Assembly: GCA_002722515.1 (NCBI GenBank)
Contig: PBMH01000040.1
Location: forward strand, 1 to 34,603
Length of the DNA stretch: 34,603 nucleotides
From: Alphaproteobacteria bacterium
GTDB taxonomy: Bacteria > Pseudomonadota > Alphaproteobacteria > UBA6615
Direction: 5' to 3'
The translations under genes were made by a program, and so were the position numbers. Numbering within the stretch: position 1 is the stretch's first letter; every line of letters starts with the position of its first letter. The notes under the pieces were generated by a model, which worked only from the letters and a program-made list of their open reading frames with translations, did no database searches and was not told the origin of the DNA. Shown piece by piece: positions 10,831 through 18,036 of the stretch.

Positions 10831-11592
10831 ATGGACGTTAACGGACTAGCTGCGGTAATCACCGGCGGCGGATCGGGCATCGGCGCAGAGGTTGCCCGCC
10901 ACTGCGCCAAGGCGGGCATGAGGGTCGCCCTCCTCGACGTAAACATGAATGGCGCAAATGCAGTCGCCGAAGAGATTGGTGGCATCGCCATCGAATGCGA
11001 TGTCACCAGTGCCGAGAGTGGTGAAGCAGCAATCACCGCGGCGTGCGCCGCCAATGGAATCGGGCGCTTGCTGGTCAACTGTGCGGGGATAGGCACGCCG
11101 GGGCGAATCGTCGGCCGCAATGGACCCCTGCCACTGGATGCGTTCAACGCCGTTATCCAGGTTAACCTTGTCGGCTCGTTCAACATGATGCGTCTGTTCG
11201 CTGCCGAACTGGGCGAAGCCGATAGTTTCGAAGACGGCGAACGCGGCCTGATCGTCAGCACCGCTTCGGTCGCGGCCACGGAGGGACAGATCGGCCAAGC
11301 CGCCTATGCCTCGTCGAAGGGAGGAATCGTATCACTGAACCTAGTAGCCGCACGCGAATTCGCGTCGCGCGGTATCCGGGTTAACACGATCGCGCCGGGA
11401 CTGATCGACACACCGATGATGGCCGGTCTACCAGACGAGGCGCGGGCGAGCCTAGCCGAGCAGCCTGAGTTTCCTAAACGCCTAGGTTACCCCGCCGAGT
11501 ATGCGCAGCTGGTCATTCACATGTGCGAGAATGTGCTAATCAATGGTGCGGTCTTCCGTCTCGACGGCGCGTTACGCATGGCCGCACGCTAG
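10831..11592 (+). CDS. SDR family NAD(P)-dependent oxidoreductase, HSD17B10/3-hydroxyacyl-CoA dehydrogenase type II-like
   Basis: A 253-residue classical short-chain dehydrogenase. It shows the cofactor motif TGGGSGIG (11-18), Asp36 at the end of beta2 (favouring NAD), NCAG (83-86), Asn112, Ser146 and the catalytic YASSK (Tyr159, Lys163). The stretch [19 protein letters not shown] and the ending [10 protein letters not shown] match type II 3-hydroxyacyl-CoA dehydrogenases, which oxidise hydroxy-acyl-CoA in branched-chain or fatty acid breakdown. That substrate assignment is family inference. The ribosome site gatgagag is close to the ATG. Its stop overlaps the convergent phhB stop by four bases. 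Confidence 0.88.
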
Positions 11593-11879
11593 CCCGCGAT
11601 GGCATCCATAAAGGCCGCAAGTTTAATGTCGAGGTTGGTCAGCCCGCCAGCATCATGTGTCGATAAGGTCACCTCGACCCGGTTCCAGACGTTAAACCAT
11701 TCCGGGTGATGGTCCATCGCCTCGGCCAAGAGCGCCACCCGGCCCATAAAGCCAAAGGCGGCGTTGAAATTCTCGAACTGAAACGTTTTCGTGATCGCAT
11801 CCCTACTATCGACCAGGGCCCAATCTACCAGTGATGCCAGCGCAGATTCGCGGGCCGTGCCTTTGAGTTTCTCCGCCAA
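11589..11879 (-). CDS. phhB: 4a-hydroxytetrahydrobiopterin dehydratase (pterin-4a-carbinolamine dehydratase)
   Basis: A 96-residue PCD/DCoH protein that dehydrates 4a-hydroxytetrahydropterin formed by aromatic amino acid hydroxylases. The signature is complete: [29 protein letters not shown], then [22 protein letters not shown], with the HHPEW and STHDAGGLT elements holding the active-site histidines. Full length for the family. Many alphaproteobacteria keep phhB without a phenylalanine hydroxylase next door, as here. Its end overlaps the SDR end by four bases on the opposite strand, and its start is divergent from the zincin gene at 11956. Confidence 0.93.
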
Positions 11880-11955
11880 TCCTGCCTCCTATCTCTGCGA
11901 CGACTCTACTGACGGCGCTTAGCGTTACAATAAAGAACCTTTATAGGACAATGGT

Positions 11956-12363
11956 ATGGCCGCTGCGGGAAAATACTGGAACGCGCCATCCCTCGCTGAT
12001 TTGGAAGCTATCGCCAGCGAGGTCTTCTTGGCGATTCCCACAACGCTGTCGCGATATGTCGCGAACATCGCGATCCATGTAGAAGATTTTCCTGACGACG
12101 AGACCATGGCGACAATGGATTTGGAGAGCCCATTCGATATTTTGGGCCTGTATGTTGGGGTCAGCCTAGACCAGAAGTCCTTGTCTGAGACGCCGAGTGA
12201 TGTGGACCGTATTTACCTCTACCGGCGTCCGATCCTCGATTATTGGTGCGAGACAGAAGAAGACCTATACCATCTCGTCCACCATGTTCTAATCCACGAG
12301 ATAGGACACCATTTCGGGTTTACCGACGACGACATGAAGCAAATCGAGACCAGTTCACACTAA
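11956..12363 (+). CDS. Small zincin-like metallopeptidase family protein
   Basis: A 135-residue cytosolic protein with the zinc-protease motif HEIGHHFGFTDDDM near the C terminus (His114, Glu115, His118). This, together with the short length and the block DILGLYVGVSL followed by RIYLYRRPILD, matches the zincin_1 family (formerly DUF1025), whose substrates are unknown. The third zinc ligand is likely the Asp-rich stretch after the motif. The ATG at 11956 follows agga by a few bases; another ATG at 11951 is out of frame. The gene is divergent from phhB with 76 bp between them. Confidence 0.85.
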   Translation: MAAAGKYWNAPSLADLEAIASEVFLAIPTTLSRYVANIAIHVEDFPDDETMATMDLESPFDILGLYVGVSLDQKSLSETPSDVDRIYLYRRPILDYWCETEEDLYHLVHHVLIHEIGHHFGFTDDDMKQIETSSH

Positions 12364-12399: not shown

Positions 12400-13137
12400 T
12401 CAACTCTCCGCAATGATACGAAGTTCGTCAACGAATTCAGGCACGACCTCTGTCGCCGGACCATAGCGCCCCTCCTGAAAAATATTAGCGCCGAGAGATT
12501 CCTCAAGATTGAGCTCGACAGCATAGGCACCATTATTGCGTGCTTCCTGCACAAAGCCGGCCGCCGGATAGACATTTCCCGACGTGCCAATCGAAACGAA
12601 CAGGCCGCACCTGCCAAGAGCCGAGCCAATCGCGTCCATATCTAGCGGCATCTCACCGAACCAGACAACATGAGGCCGCAAGGCACCGGTCACTCCACAG
12701 AACAGGCAGACCATATCCGTCTCTACATCTCCGATTCCTTCGAACAGATGCCCACAATCGTTGCAGCGCGTCTTCGCCAGTTCGCCGTGCATATGGATGA
12801 GATTCCGGCTACCACCGCGCGCGTGAAGATTGTCGATGTTCTGGGTAACGAGCAACACGCCGCTGGGCCAGAAACCTTCCAGCCTGCCTAGCGCTGCATG
12901 AGCCGCATTGGGCTGAATATTACTGCCCTCCATCTGGGCACGTCGAACATTGTAGAATCCGAGCACCACCTCAGGATTACGTGCAAACGCCTGAGGCGTC
13001 GCCACGTCTTCGATGCGGTGTTTGGCCCAAATTCCGTCCGGATCCCGAAACGTCTGGAGACCAGATTCTTTAGAAATGCCGGCACCCGTCAAAATCACGA
13101 TCGAGTCGGCGGCAGAAACGAAGTCGCTGAGGCTCAT
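12400..13137 (-). CDS. cobB: NAD-dependent protein deacylase, CobB-type sirtuin
   Basis: A 245-residue SIR2 protein that removes acyl groups from lysines using NAD. It shows GAGIS (18-22), TQNIDNLH (98-105), HMHGE with catalytic His117, and a zinc ribbon of Cys125-Cys128 and Cys144-Cys147. HVVWFGEMP and the GTSGNVYPAAGF segment match Escherichia coli CobB closely. The Tyr62-x-x-Arg65 pair in FYNVRR is the pair that in class III sirtuins binds negatively charged acyl groups, so desuccinylase activity is plausible in addition to deacetylation. The ORF is intact and convergent with the zincin gene. Confidence 0.93.
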   Translation of the reverse strand: MSLSDFVSAADSIVILTGAGISKESGLQTFRDPDGIWAKHRIEDVATPQAFARNPEVVLGFYNVRRAQMEGSNIQPNAAHAALGRLEGFWPSGVLLVTQNIDNLHARGGSRNLIHMHGELAKTRCNDCGHLFEGIGDVETDMVCLFCGVTGALRPHVVWFGEMPLDMDAIGSALGRCGLFVSIGTSGNVYPAAGFVQEARNNGAYAVELNLEESLGANIFQEGRYGPATEVVPEFVDELRIIAES

Positions 13138-13411
13138 CTATGGCTCCCGGCTGGGTTTTACCGAGTTGACACTTTACCTCTCAAGTATAGCTTGCACCGG
13201 CGAAAAAGAGACGAGGAGTAAAAAGCAAATGCGTCCGCCCCCTATCGGCATATTGGGAAATGTTTGTAACTGGCGGTGGTCGTCAGCGTACCAGAAGACT
13301 GCTCCACCAGTATCGCGACTGCTCTTCTCTTCACATGAGATGCCGGCGGCCAGTCGGCAGCGCCATAACTGAAAAACAAATACCTTATCTCCCCAGACGA
13401 CAGGATCAGGC

Positions 13412-14191
13412 GTGAACAAAGAACCCAGCAAGTCAGACCCGGAACCCATCACCACACCCGAGGCGCCGTTTCAAAAGGGTACTACTGCCACGCTTCATCC
13501 ACCTAGGGTTCATACTATGCGTATGGGCCACCTGCCACTAACCATCTTTGTAACTGTCGCAATTTCCGGTTTGTTCGCGCTCGCCTTTGAGCTCGGTTCC
13601 GCGCCAGTAATAGTCGGTATCGCTCTCCTGGCACTGCTGATCGTCTTTGCGGCAATCACCCCCAGCACCTCTGATTCACCCCCCACTGCGGGCACGCGCT
13701 TTACCGTCGCCCGGGTTGCGATGACTTGCTTGATTGGCGGACTCGCGGTGGTGCCGGCCGGAAATCCACCCGAACCTCTTCTCTGGTCGTTAGCCCTAAT
13801 GGGCATCGTCGCGGCTGGGCTAGGAGCAATCGATGGATGGCTCGCGCGGATCACCTGTTCCAACAGCGGATTTAGCGAGAGGCTCGGCGGCCTAGCAGGC
13901 ACACTTCTGGTGTTGGCTCTGGCGCTTCTTGTTTGGCGCCTGGGCCTGGTTGGCCCCTGGATCATTGCAGCCGGGGCGCTTGGGTTCGCCGAAGCAGCCA
14001 TGCTCGCGGGTCAGAAAAATCAACAGCGCGAAACCTGGCAGATCGGGGCAACTCTTCTGGTCCGCCTTGCACTCGCCATCGCTATTATTCCCGACGTGCC
14101 TCAGCTCTCCGTCACGATGCTAGCCCTTCTCGCAACCTCGGTCGCGGTCGGTCTTTTGGGCTACACGCTAGTCGATCGACTCAACAACTGA
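13412..14191 (+). CDS. CDP-alcohol phosphatidyltransferase-like membrane protein with degenerate catalytic motif
   Basis: A 259-residue protein (GTG start; an ATG at codon 36 is an alternative) with six or so hydrophobic helices after a polar N terminus. The block DGWLARITCSNSGFSERLGGLAG (residues 141-163, as DGWLAR plus the following part) aligns with the family motif DxxDGxxARx8GxxxDxxxD. Asp141, Gly142, Ala145 and Arg146 are kept, but the first Asp is Gly138, the central Gly is Ser155 and the last two Asp are Gly159 and Gly163. The surrounding LLVLALALLVWRLG is intact. Active enzymes need these aspartates for metal binding, so this one is probably inactive for the usual phospholipid headgroup transfer. 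The family link is by motif and hydropathy only. Confidence 0.65.
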   Translation: MNKEPSKSDPEPITTPEAPFQKGTTATLHPPRVHTMRMGHLPLTIFVTVAISGLFALAFELGSAPVIVGIALLALLIVFAAITPSTSDSPPTAGTRFTVARVAMTCLIGGLAVVPAGNPPEPLLWSLALMGIVAAGLGAIDGWLARITCSNSGFSERLGGLAGTLLVLALALLVWRLGLVGPWIIAAGALGFAEAAMLAGQKNQQRETWQIGATLLVRLALAIAIIPDVPQLSVTMLALLATSVAVGLLGYTLVDRLNN

Positions 14192-14261: not shown

Positions 14262-14336
14262 GAATTACTCCAACAAAACCCCCATATTCACTAAATACTT
14301 CGCATGATAGGGAACCCTTGGGAGGGTAACAGAACG

Positions 14337-15083
14337 ATGGCGAACCAATTCGAGAACGGGACGGTTATTAAGAGCCGTGCAGCAGACGCAACGCAGATCG
14401 ACGAGGGCCTCCGGTCCTACATGCTCCGCGTCTATAATTATATGACAACGGGTCTCGCGCTGACGGGCATCATCGCCTATCTGGTCGCAAACACCCCAGC
14501 CGTACTGAGCCTCTTCTATTCGGTCGGGCCCCAAGGACAGGTAGCATCGACGCCGCTAGCCTGGATTGCGATGCTTTCGCCGTTGGCCTTTGTGTTGGTG
14601 CTGTCTTTTGGCATCAATCGAATGCGAGCCTCAACCGCACAGCTTGTCTTCTGGCTCTTCGCCGCAGTGATGGGCCTGTCGCTCAGCCATATTTTTCTGC
14701 AATTTACCGGCGCAAGCATAGCGCGAGTTTTTTTCATCACAGCCGCGACCTTCGCTGCTATGAGCCTCTACGGATACACGACGAAGCGCGACCTATCAGG
14801 CCTAGGTAACTTTTTGTTCATGGGCCTGATCGGGATAATCCTCGCCAGCTTGGTCAACATCTTTATCGGTTCGACGATGATGCAGTTTGTCATTTCCATT
14901 CTCGGCGTCATCGTGTTTGTTGGCCTCACCGCCTACGACACCCAGAAAATCAAGGAGATGTACAACGAACTCGATAGTACCGAGATCGCCGGAAAAAAGG
15001 CAATCATGGGGGCGCTGCGGCTCTATCTCGACTTCATTAACCTGTTCATGATGCTGCTACACCTGTTCGGCCAGCGTGACTAA
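14337..15083 (+). CDS. Bax inhibitor-1/YccA family membrane protein
   Basis: A 248-residue protein with about seven transmembrane helices, placing it in the inner membrane. Family marks are an N-terminal RSYMLRVYNYMTTGLALTG, the GLTAYDTQKIKEMY motif with the conserved Asp, and LRLYLDFINLFMMLL at the C terminus. Eukaryotic and bacterial BI-1 proteins act as calcium leak channels or, for YccA, modulate FtsH proteolysis; which applies here is unknown. The ATG at 14337 follows ggagg by about ten bases and is preferred to the in-frame ATG at 14304. Two terminators follow the stop. Confidence 0.93.
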   Translation: MANQFENGTVIKSRAADATQIDEGLRSYMLRVYNYMTTGLALTGIIAYLVANTPAVLSLFYSVGPQGQVASTPLAWIAMLSPLAFVLVLSFGINRMRASTAQLVFWLFAAVMGLSLSHIFLQFTGASIARVFFITAATFAAMSLYGYTTKRDLSGLGNFLFMGLIGIILASLVNIFIGSTMMQFVISILGVIVFVGLTAYDTQKIKEMYNELDSTEIAGKKAIMGALRLYLDFINLFMMLLHLFGQRD

Positions 15084-15162: not shown

Positions 15163-15188
15163 ACGCCCAAGTCTGGGCGTTTTCTTTT
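15163..15188 (+). terminator. Rho-independent terminator 2, tandem copy
   Basis: Stem ACGCCCA / TGGGCGT with loop AGTC, followed by tttctttt. It is the diverged second copy of terminator 1 and precedes the SDR start by about 50 bp, insulating that gene. Confidence 0.85.
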
Positions 15189-15240
15189 GTGCGCCCGCAG
15201 CTTAAGTTTCACCCAACGAATAAATAATGGGAAAAGAATT

Positions 15241-16005
15241 ATGGCCAACCTGAATGATAAGGTGATCGTTCTGACCGGCGCCAGCCGCGGCATCGGGGCG
15301 GCGGCAGCGCGGGAACTCGCAATCGACCGCGCGCATCTAGTGTTGTGCGCCCGGAGCGAGGAGGCTTGCGCAGAGACAAAGGCTGCTGTCGAGGTGCTAG
15401 GTGCGACCGTCGAGACCCATGGCTTTGAAGTCGCGGATTTCGATGCGGCAAAATCCTTCGTCAACGGCGTCCTCTCGGAACACGGCCGAATCGACATCCT
15501 AATCAACAACGCCGGCACTGGTCTTATGGGATCGGTTGCGGACGTTACCCCGGACGCCTATCTCGACGTCCTCAAGATCAACGTAATGGGGCCATACAAC
15601 TTGATTTCGGCAGTCCTCCCTTCAATGACCGAACGCAACGACGGGATCATCATCAACATCACCAGCGCGCGAGCGTTCATTCCCGACCGCTTCTACGCCG
15701 CCTACTGCTCATCAAAGGCGGCGCTACTATCGATGACCCAATGTCTGCACTACGACCTTCAGGACAGCAATGTGAAAATCTTCGCCCTCTCCCCCGGCTT
15801 CACCCAGACCGACATGGTCAATGATATCTACGCCAACCCGGTTTTCCGCGCCGCCGCACTGACCCCCGACCAGGGACAGCCGCCAGAGCGTCCGGCCAAG
15901 GTGTTGGCCTGGTTGGCACGCGAGGCGCCGGCAGACCTCGCCGGCGTACACAATCAAGTCCAGTTCAACGACTTGACCCGACGCGCTGGCATCGAGGCCA
16001 TCTAA
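15241..16005 (+). CDS. SDR family oxidoreductase
   Basis: A 254-residue classical short-chain dehydrogenase with TGASRGIG (12-19), CARS at the end of beta2 (favouring NADP because an Arg follows), NNAG (89-92), Ser142 and the YCSSK catalytic pair (Tyr155, Lys159). The ATG at 15241 follows gggaaaaga; an in-frame ATG at 15187 lies within the upstream terminator and is rejected. The closest type is generic 3-oxoacyl-ACP reductase-like, and the substrate is unknown. The gene stands alone: terminators precede it and it converges on the fusion gene ending at 16149. Confidence 0.87.
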   Translation: MANLNDKVIVLTGASRGIGAAAARELAIDRAHLVLCARSEEACAETKAAVEVLGATVETHGFEVADFDAAKSFVNGVLSEHGRIDILINNAGTGLMGSVADVTPDAYLDVLKINVMGPYNLISAVLPSMTERNDGIIINITSARAFIPDRFYAAYCSSKAALLSMTQCLHYDLQDSNVKIFALSPGFTQTDMVNDIYANPVFRAAALTPDQGQPPERPAKVLAWLAREAPADLAGVHNQVQFNDLTRRAGIEAI

Positions 16006-16148: not shown

Positions 16149-17207
16149 TCAGCTATAGATCGGATCAGTCGGTGACATGATATTGTCCACTCGTGGTTTC
16201 ATCACATGCGGCTTGCGATAAATCGCCGAGCAGCGCAGCACTGGCAAACCATCTGCCCGGACGGTCCCTTCAACAAAGTTCATGGTCCGCGTGCTTTTAA
16301 CCAGCCGCGCATCGCATTCCACCCACTGGCCTGGGTAGATAGGTGCCAGGAAATCGGCCTCGAGATGAATCGTAGGCGTTAACCCAACCAACCCAAGTTC
16401 ATACATGGCCGACTGTGCCATCGCTACATCAACGAAGCTGGTCATCCAGCCACCATGGACGACATCACGCGGATTGAGATGCCGGTGGTCAGCGCGGAAC
16501 CCAAAGACAGCCTTAGTCTTACTAAACTTGACGAATAGCGGCCCGTTACGCGTCGTGAACGGGCTGGTAAACTCGAATATCTCGAACCCGCGGGGCGTCC
16601 TGATCGCCTTTTCGAGACGATACTCCAAATGGTCTAAACGGTCGGCGCCCCAGAAGGTCTCCCCGTCGAGCACCGTAAAAGGCGCACCAAACATTCCGTC
16701 CCTGAGGGCGCGCTTATAGGCGCTGCGGAGATCCTTAACCGCGCGCATATCATCCGATGCAGCCTGAATTTGCTTCAGTGAGATATCCACGTCGCGCACC
16801 TTGCAAGCCCGTGCCAGCTGCTGCGCCGTACGAACCTCCTTGCCGGTACCAAAATACTGATGATCTACGGCACGGGCGAACTGCTTAGCCAACTCGGGTG
16901 TCTTCCGGTTGAAACGCCAGAAAACCAGGCGGTGCAGATTTGCACCATAAGGCGGCACCTCGGGTGGGAAGGAAACCGGGAGTTCATTCATCTCACACAG
17001 ACGTGGAAAGTCGTTCGAGTTGTGGGCAAACTTGGCGGGCTGGTCCCGCGGCGACGTTGCCTCGTGATAGGCTAGTATTTCAGGAAGGGGTACGCAGTGC
17101 CACTCAACCTTCCGTCCCCAGCGCGCACCTAGTTCGTCGATGCGGTTCATGGCGACATAGGAGTAGGCCGATACGAAATCGAAGTAGAACTTGATAGGGG
17201 CTGGCAT
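16149..17207 (-). CDS. Fusion of 2-hydroxychromene-2-carboxylate isomerase-like (DsbA-fold) and PaaI-type hotdog thioesterase domains
   Basis: A 352-residue protein joining two normally separate enzymes. Residues 1-200 match the DsbA-fold HCCA isomerases (FYFDFVSAYSYVAM at 7-20 with Ser13 in the glutathione-interacting position, GAPFTVLDGETFWGADRLDHL at 174-194), which act on aromatic degradation intermediates with glutathione. After a short linker, residues 215-335 form a hotdog thioesterase with VVHGGWMTSFVDVAM (249-263; HGG at 251-253, Asp260). The reading frame is uninterrupted, and the ATG at 17205-17207 follows gagg. It is the last gene of the IclR operon, 34 bp after the regulator. Function on a CoA- or glutathione-linked aromatic is inferred from domains only. 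Confidence 0.85.
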   Translation of the reverse strand: MPAPIKFYFDFVSAYSYVAMNRIDELGARWGRKVEWHCVPLPEILAYHEATSPRDQPAKFAHNSNDFPRLCEMNELPVSFPPEVPPYGANLHRLVFWRFNRKTPELAKQFARAVDHQYFGTGKEVRTAQQLARACKVRDVDISLKQIQAASDDMRAVKDLRSAYKRALRDGMFGAPFTVLDGETFWGADRLDHLEYRLEKAIRTPRGFEIFEFTSPFTTRNGPLFVKFSKTKAVFGFRADHRHLNPRDVVHGGWMTSFVDVAMAQSAMYELGLVGLTPTIHLEADFLAPIYPGQWVECDARLVKSTRTMNFVEGTVRADGLPVLRCSAIYRKPHVMKPRVDNIMSPTDPIYS

Positions 17208-17241
17208 TTTTTCCTCTAAAGAATGACGAATCACGAATGCT

Positions 17242-18036
17242 TCAACTACCAAACGCGCCGTCTTGAGAATCACAATCGATAATATACTCTGAAATCTCTT
17301 TCGCGGTTTCGACGACGCGTCCAGTCAGGTGACTGAGCTGGTCCGCATCCAGACGGGACGCCAGACCAGATGCAGAGACGGCGATCGCGGCGCGACCAGA
17401 GGAGCTCATTACCGGCGCGGCGATACAGGTCAGACCAGAGACCATTTCGCCCTCATCAACGGCATACCCTTGCAATCGGATAGCCGCCAAGGCCTCCAGA
17501 AACACTTCGACATTAGTTATGGTGCGAGCCGTATGCGCATTGGGTGGATAGTGGCGATACAGTCGGCGCACCTCGTCCGGCTCAAGCCAGGCGAGTAAAG
17601 CTTTACCAACGCCCGTAGCGTGGGCATCAAACCGCATGCCTATCGCGGTGGCCACCGGACTCACCCCCGATGGCTCGACCTTGTCACAATAGACAACCTG
17701 TGGACCCTCAAGTGCAGCCAGGTGCACGGTCTCGCCGAGGTCCCAGGCGAGCTGGTGAATAAAAGGTGCCGCATGACGGGTGATAGTCTGGAGTTGTTTC
17801 TGCCGGCGACCGAGCGCAAATACCTTATAACCGAGCACGTAGGTGCTGTCGGTGGCGTCCTTGTGAATCCAGCCCATCCGCGTCAGGACGGCTAGTAGGC
17901 GGTATGCAGTTCCCCTGTTTATGCCGGTCTGACGGGCTATTGCGGCCAGAGGAATAGGATCCTCCGCGCTGTCGACGCATTCAAGGATCGCGAAGGTACG
18001 CTCTGCCGATTGGTTCTGGTAACGGGTTTCGGTCAT
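17242..18036 (-). CDS. IclR family transcriptional regulator
   Basis: A 264-residue regulator. The N-terminal winged helix-turn-helix (residues about 10-70; IARQTGINRGTAYRLLAVLTRMGWI) is followed by the IclR effector domain (about 80-255; the segments GMRFDAHATGVGKALLAW and YAVDEGEMVSGLTCIAAPV are typical). IclR proteins sense small metabolites and repress or activate nearby catabolic genes. It lies between the OYE gene (14 bp gap) and the fusion enzyme (34 bp gap) on the same strand, so it is expressed within the operon it probably controls. The effector is unknown. There is no strong ribosome site at the ATG. Confidence 0.93.
   Translation of the reverse strand: MTETRYQNQSAERTFAILECVDSAEDPIPLAAIARQTGINRGTAYRLLAVLTRMGWIHKDATDSTYVLGYKVFALGRRQKQLQTITRHAAPFIHQLAWDLGETVHLAALEGPQVVYCDKVEPSGVSPVATAIGMRFDAHATGVGKALLAWLEPDEVRRLYRHYPPNAHTARTITNVEVFLEALAAIRLQGYAVDEGEMVSGLTCIAAPVMSSSGRAAIAVSASGLASRLDADQLSHLTGRVVETAKEISEYIIDCDSQDGAFGS

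Follow-up and report, generated by a model that had tools for sequence, protein, structure and literature searches.

CDP-alcohol phosphotransferases carry out the defining step of glycerophospholipid synthesis. The active members of this family share the signature D1xxD2G1xxAR...G2xxxD3xxxD4 (PMC6506517; PMC4634129), and its eight residues are termed absolutely conserved in the consulted part of PMC4634129. According to the consulted parts of both papers, the aspartates of the characterised enzymes bind metal and D4 is the likely base, the nucleotide cleft is lined by two glycines and one alanine, and contact with the pyrimidine comes from the first helix with its P(D/N)xx(T/S) motif. The second described system that matters here, YbbAP-TesA of E. 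coli, points to lipid turnover (PMC12646458, consulted in part). In the open-access literature we found neither a pseudoenzyme described in the CDP-alcohol phosphotransferase superfamily nor a paper linking a CDP-alcohol phosphatidyltransferase or phosphotransferase with YbbP or YceI.

The protein studied here is encoded in a stretch of alphaproteobacterial DNA of 34,603 nucleotides, which we call the window (Table 1). A preliminary description of the gene had stated that the motif DGWLAR is intact, that Gly138, Gly159 and Gly163 stand at the first, third and fourth aspartate positions and Ser155 at the motif glycine, and that the hydrophobic helix after the motif is well kept. The translation bears out these residues, and in the predicted model the helix spans residues 153–176. 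As the spacing of all eight signature positions is exact, D1, D3 and D4 can be read as Gly and G2 as Ser, with D2, G1, A and R retained. The window protein thus lacks the eight-residue signature of the active enzymes and falls under the definition of a pseudoenzyme, that is, conserved catalytic motifs absent by sequence analysis (definition as given in the consulted part of PMC10211241). The GTG start is supported by a conserved stretch which covers both the ribosome-binding site and the start codon and is identical to the same-genus locus L054 in 23 of 24 bases. A scan for promoters and terminators found none.

Table 1. Features of the pseudoenzyme locus (window coordinates)
Feature	Position	Strand	Remarks
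Sir2-family protein	12400..13137	-	abuts the pseudoenzyme gene in the window genome
Relic of a ybbP-like gene (3' end)	13270..13380	+	111 bases, last 37 codons, two in-frame stops; shuffle test
Likely ribosome-binding site AGGA	13402..13405	+	also precedes the start in L052, L053 and L054
CDP-alcohol-phosphotransferase-like pseudoenzyme	13412..14191	+	259 aa, GTG start; two N-terminal helices and six-helix core predicted
N-terminal conserved block, residues 28-44 (LHPPxVHTMxMGHxPLT)	13493..13543	+	11 invariant positions out of 17 (12 sequences, genera g1 and g6)
Start of core helix 1, residues 94-98 (GTRFT)	13691..13705	+	Asn of the cytidine-binding motif replaced by Thr95 in 18 of 18 pseudoenzyme rows
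Degenerate signature motif, residues 138-163	13823..13900	+	G138 (D1), D141 (D2), G142, A145, R146, S155 (G2), G159 (D3), G163 (D4)
Bax inhibitor-1 family membrane protein	14304..15083	+	directly downstream at 18 of 18 testable pseudoenzyme loci
Short-chain dehydrogenase (SDR)	15187..16005	+	next downstream gene; same place in many relatives

The homologue search by HMM that had been proposed for this protein gave a divided answer. With Pfam PF01066 itself, the window protein scores 17.4 bits and stays below the gathering cut-off of 22; none of 17 pseudoenzyme members reaches the cut-off and only two match at an E-value of up to 1, the window protein being the best of them (E 0.0061). Proteins of this kind will therefore probably be overlooked or called hypothetical. 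On the other hand, when a profile of 17 of the 19 orthologues (A1; L009 and L017 omitted) was compared with a profile of ten full-signature relatives, which carry all eight residues, hhalign returned a probability of 99.2% and an E-value of 6e-20 over 187 columns. In addition, a tree joins the pseudoenzymes and their full-signature relatives against six PgsA-like rows with a support of 100/100. By these comparisons the pseudoenzymes are homologous to full-signature members. The pseudoenzyme profile had no match by sequence in the PDB, and NCBIfam held no family for the window protein.

The structural overlay that had also been suggested agrees with this assignment. AlphaFold2 was used to model the window protein and its orthologue at L056; both models are of middling quality (mean pLDDT 63.0 and 64.5, pTM 0.58 and 0.59) and consist of two N-terminal helices and a six-helix core. 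In VIA-align, CDP-alcohol phosphotransferases fill rows 1–7 for the window model (7drj_B, Z 12.4, 3.3 A, 165 residues aligned) and rows 1–11 for the L056 model (7drk_B, Z 11.1, 3.5 A, 162 aligned); for either model the highest Z of an unrelated row is 8.2. VIA-align warns that a Z below about 13 may reflect a common arrangement in helical models; we nevertheless accept the six-helix family fold because the top rows are uniformly family members. The best Foldseek matches are PgsA for both models, with weak E-values (0.21 and 0.05) and probabilities of 0.99 and 1.00. A mere coincidence of fold was rejected, since the profile comparison and the fold comparison both point to this family. Judged by the predicted models, the window protein is a relative of the CDP-alcohol phosphotransferases by descent.

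The loss of the signature is not confined to the window. An orthologue without D1, D3 and D4 and with Ser at G2 is present in 19 of the 24 genomes of the window's family, seven of them in genus g1 (the window's included), six in g6, two in g7, one in g9 and three in g2. Two genomes of the family, G008 (g3) and G016 (g10), carry a full-signature relative; neither form was found in G009, G010 and G013, the weak match in G009 being another PF01066 protein. An order-level search returned only the same 24 genomes. At class level (385 genomes) the degenerate form was found in five genomes, none of them outside the window's family. We rejected a wider spread of this form: 25 further loci were fetched in the class, among which L095 and L107 are the same as L022 and L023, and eight new ones in the phylum (398 genomes), and every one of them matches the full-signature pattern; the class and phylum results refer to the fetched loci, the other matches there being weaker. 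The labels of ten relatives, all of them metagenome assemblies, are Alphaproteobacteria, Rhodospirillaceae or Proteobacteria.

Trees and residue counts are based on 18 of the 19 pseudoenzyme rows (G018, with locus L017 cut by the contig end, was left out) and on 22 full-signature rows, which exclude two repeats and the six PgsA-like rows, tallied apart. Among the pseudoenzymes, Asp is found in no row at D1 (Glu 7, Gly 5, Leu 3, and Trp, Ile and Ser), at D3 (Gly 9, Ser 5, Asn 2, Ala, Glu) or at D4 (Gly 11, Ala 2, Asn 2, Glu 2, His), and G2 is Ser in all 18. Whether relatives share the Asp-to-Gly pattern had been raised as a point to check: the loss of the three aspartates and the exchange of Gly for Ser are fixed, Gly itself at the aspartate positions is not. 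Of the remaining signature positions, G1 is Gly in six rows and R is Arg in 11 (Glu 3, Gln 2, Lys 2). D2 stays acidic throughout (Asp 15, Glu 3) and the seven rows with Glu at D1 are the six of g6 and that of G003, so that, as far as residues can tell, some members may have a single weak metal site. The losses extend beyond the signature. Besides the Asn of the first helix, the pseudoenzymes lack Arg at positions 191 and 211 (0 of 18 rows, compared with 21 of 22 full-signature rows for each); by their place in the fold these positions are likely the counterparts of the acceptor-phosphate arginines of PIP synthase. The C-terminal residues S248, F249 and D252, present in 22 of 22 full-signature rows each, are retained in 2, 0 and 2 of 18 pseudoenzyme rows. 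Having lost residues for metal, cytidine and acceptor, the pseudoenzyme could hardly bind or use CDP-lipids.

Could the protein nevertheless have stayed an enzyme, whose catalytic residues are others or lie elsewhere? An acidic residue at position 141 and the invariant S155, R96 and S126 would fit such a case, as would the glutamates at D1. Against this, D3, D4 as the likely base, the cytidine-binding Asn and the two likely acceptor arginines are gone and neither D3 nor D4 has a consistent replacement; in a mycobacterial relative already the change of D4 to Asn nearly abolished activity (PMC4634129, consulted in part). We therefore regard a retained enzymatic activity as quite unlikely.

P42, A58, F59, G62, G94, T95, R96, S126 and S155 are invariant in all 18 pseudoenzyme rows. 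R96 is also Arg in 13 and G62 also Gly in seven of the 22 full-signature rows, whereas Pro at position 42 is found in none of them. In the 12 sequences from g1 and g6, the conserved N-terminal block has 11 of 17 positions invariant, compared with 45 of 242 outside it. The 18 rows lie on one side of a single branch with a support of 98/92 in a tree whose bootstrap is unsettled; without the motif columns they still form one clade, and the support drops to 91/77. For 12 pairs of pseudoenzyme genes dN/dS (NG86) was 0.127–0.287. In a second run the values were 0.127–0.272 for the pseudoenzyme (ten pairs), 0.072–0.127 for ybbP (six pairs) and 0.038–0.317 for the Bax-inhibitor gene (ten pairs); as dS exceeds 1 in several pairs, the values are rough, and they indicate that the pseudoenzyme gene is constrained, less tightly than ybbP.

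These data bear on the simplest alternative, that the copy in the window is merely decaying. The preliminary description had named full-aspartate homologues in sister genomes as a sign of this, and such copies indeed exist in the sister genera of G008 and G016; moreover, the adjoining ybbP did decay in the window genome. Yet all 19 close orthologues share the loss. Their frames are open over five genera, with no internal stop in the sequenced part of the 19 (two are cut by contig ends) and none in the 13 copies read in the dN/dS runs, and the clade-specific invariant positions together with a dN/dS of 0.13–0.29 indicate constraint. The window copy is 55.5–71.8% identical to five other g1 copies, and the copy of the sister genome G001, which has kept ybbP, is 53.6–69.8% identical to them; in each of the five comparisons the window copy is the closer one, that is, it is not accelerated. 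Given the shared loss, the single clade (18 members in the tree), the absence of internal stops and the low dN/dS, decay in one genome was rejected and appears highly improbable. The earlier inference of a pseudoenzyme or a protein with a new function, with its fold under selection, is in line with the fold match, the 19 orthologues, their single clade and the low dN/dS. We regard the identity and the history of this protein as a pseudoenzyme as very likely. The reading that fits best is a pseudoenzyme of great age which selection has kept and which probably serves in the membrane, as a lipid-binding or a regulatory partner.

Which role such a protein might play can be approached from its neighbours. 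For the window, the earlier statement that there is no obvious partner gene is correct; for the family it does not hold, as a ybbP-like gene lies directly upstream of the pseudoenzyme gene at 14 of 18 testable loci (the window counted; in G023 the contig starts in the gene), in addition to the Bax inhibitor-1 gene downstream (the window also counted there; in G018 the contig ends in the pseudoenzyme gene). The names ybbA, ybbP and tesA stand for best NCBIfam matches below the equivalog cut-offs. In relatives such as L059 five genes separate Sir2 from the pseudoenzyme, the order being Sir2, LigT, FIST, tesA-like (divergent), ybbA-like, ybbP-like, pseudoenzyme, Bax inhibitor-1 and SDR. Three further observations concern the surroundings. 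A second YbbAP-like ABC system, of divergent sequence, is present in G011 (L091, 4801–8051); its permease is 27% identical and has its frame broken once by TAG. In the window, positions 16149–17273 encode a fusion of a DsbA-like with a 4HBT thioesterase domain, and ORFs of similar length in relatives cluster with this ORF. A pterin carbinolamine dehydratase gene lies beside a zincin-like metallopeptidase gene at 11589–12363, and this pair is also found in L059.

The adjacency to ybbP, with gaps of 8–63 bases in ten measured loci and 95 in G006, might be taken to mean that the protein is a dedicated membrane subunit of a YbbAP-TesA-like complex for lipid extraction and hydrolysis. The four testable loci without ybbP speak against this. 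In the window genome (82.9% complete) a YbbP search gave only a match of 17.8 bits, and TesA was not found; in G007 (genus g2) both searches gave nothing beyond weak matches (17.8 and 20.3 bits across the two genomes), and none of the three g2 loci has ybbP beside the pseudoenzyme, the genome-wide search having covered G007 of these. What is left of ybbP in the window is the relic, which matches the last 37 ybbP residues end to end with scores of 52 and 47 for two ybbP queries, values reached by 0 of 2000 and 1 of 2000 dinucleotide shuffles; other proteins tried against this region scored at most 34. Nevertheless, the pseudoenzyme frame is open in the window genome and in g2, and the window copy has not evolved faster. 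Conversely, ybbP occurs without the pseudoenzyme gene in g4, g5, g8 and four other families. The persistence of the pseudoenzyme without YbbAP implies that this complex is not the sole partner and that the main partner must be something else; we consider a dedicated subunit unlikely.

The Bax-inhibitor gene is a more constant neighbour. Yet it follows ybbP also in seven genomes without the pseudoenzyme (G013, G009, G032, G030, G024, G027 and G010, in the last with yceI between them), so that its place is older than or independent of the pseudoenzyme. In G005 and G017 the Bax-inhibitor copies are only 62% and 56% identical to that of the window (L053, 8899–9645; L058, 7838–8581), compared with 77–90% for the other ten g1 and g6 relatives. 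This looks like replacement in place by divergent copies while the pseudoenzyme was not replaced, which argues against tight co-evolution of the two.

A third neighbour distinguishes the full-signature form. The slot reads ybbP, full-signature gene, yceI and Bax-inhibitor gene in G008 and also in G206, a genome from another family. yceI adjoins 11 of the 22 full-signature loci (L069, L071, L072, L096–L098, L100, L104 and L110–L112), a number which overstates the independent cases as L110–L112 (f34) are near-copies, and is absent from the flanks of the other 11 (flanks of about 1.5 kb in 18 of the 22). In two of these yceI-linked loci an FkbM-type methyltransferase gene comes next. Only two genomes of the window's family, G008 and G010, were found to carry yceI, and neither is among the 19 pseudoenzyme genomes. 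The loss of the active site hence coincides with the absence of yceI, and the link is loose since yceI was also not found in the full-signature genome G016 (74% complete).

Alternatively, the pseudoenzyme might be a regulatory hetero-partner of the remaining CDP-alcohol phosphotransferase, which we label PgsA-like. The window genome (G000) and each of the three g2 genomes have one PF01066 protein above the cut-off. Solved family members have a homodimeric six-helix architecture (PMC4634129, consulted in part) and it is known that an inactive homologue can act as an activator (PMC10211241, consulted in part). However, the PgsA-like gene lies on another contig in G000, and other pseudoenzyme genomes have two or three PF01066 proteins. 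A partnership with this enzyme seems doubtful, about as much as that with YbbAP.

Taken together, a catalytic site that was lost across the group in a protein that was kept by selection probably means a non-catalytic role in the membrane, and a clade-wide pseudoenzyme with such a role is in our view the likely and best explanation. We suggest the following course. The ancestor would have been a full-signature and presumably active gene next to yceI, between the ybbP-like and the Bax-inhibitor-1 genes. In one branch of the alphaproteobacterial family yceI was then lost. As the sequences show, the protein of this branch has given up the dinuclear metal site (D1, D3 and D4), the likely acceptor-phosphate arginines and, by the changes of Asn to Thr95 and of Gly to Ser155, the cytidine pocket, while the fold, the hydrophobic helices and one acidic residue (D/E141) were retained under selection. 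The non-catalytic protein would keep the lipid groove and the dimer surface of the family and might bind a lipid or a partner protein, thereby regulating the handling of inner-membrane phospholipids, at first alongside the YbbAP-TesA-like system. In the window genome and g2, where the protein persists without this system, Bax inhibitor-1 or the remaining PgsA-like enzyme may be the main partner. Non-catalytic binding of a lipid or a partner is somewhat favoured as the function; any one named partner, be it Bax inhibitor-1 or the PgsA-like enzyme, is at best a tentative choice. More specifically, an inactivated phospholipid synthase could have become a membrane subunit or sensor which binds lipid and links the lipid pool of the inner membrane with YbbAP-TesA and Bax inhibitor-1, the new conserved N-terminal motif LHPPxVHTMxMGHxPLT being the contact site. 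This is an improbable reading; if true, it would give the superfamily its first pseudoenzyme with an independent role.

That a clade has dropped the signature and yet retained the protein suggests a use of this membrane fold which needs no catalysis. Moreover, the gene slot represents a natural experiment with a full-signature form, a dead form and the loss of the ABC neighbours, and these three states around one slot should make the roles separable by genetics.

How does this protein compare with the known systems? With the PF01066 enzymes (PgsA 7drj/7drk, M. tuberculosis PgsA1 6h53/6h5a and AF2299 4o6m) it shares the six-helix core, as seen in the two predicted models, the DGxxAR motif and the spacing of the signature; it differs by lacking D1, D3, D4, G2, the cytidine-binding Asn and two likely acceptor arginines and by lying under the Pfam cut-off. 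The full-signature subfamily (for example L069 and L096), which occurs in the Alphaproteobacteria and in other classes of the phylum, comprises the closest sequence relatives found. Both groups have an N-terminal extension, and the slot behind ybbP is common to the pseudoenzyme and to the full-signature members in G008 and G206. In contrast, the full-signature subfamily has all eight signature residues and the C-terminal SFxxD motif in 22 of 22 rows, and half of its loci are linked to yceI. Homologues of the type VII ABC lipid hydrolase complex YbbAP-TesA share the gene cluster at most pseudoenzyme loci, with names below the equivalog cut-offs; the pseudoenzyme is linked to this complex by gene adjacency and outlives the loss of ybbAP-tesA. 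With pseudoenzymes in general it has in common that a conserved protein is under selection while the catalytic motif is lost.
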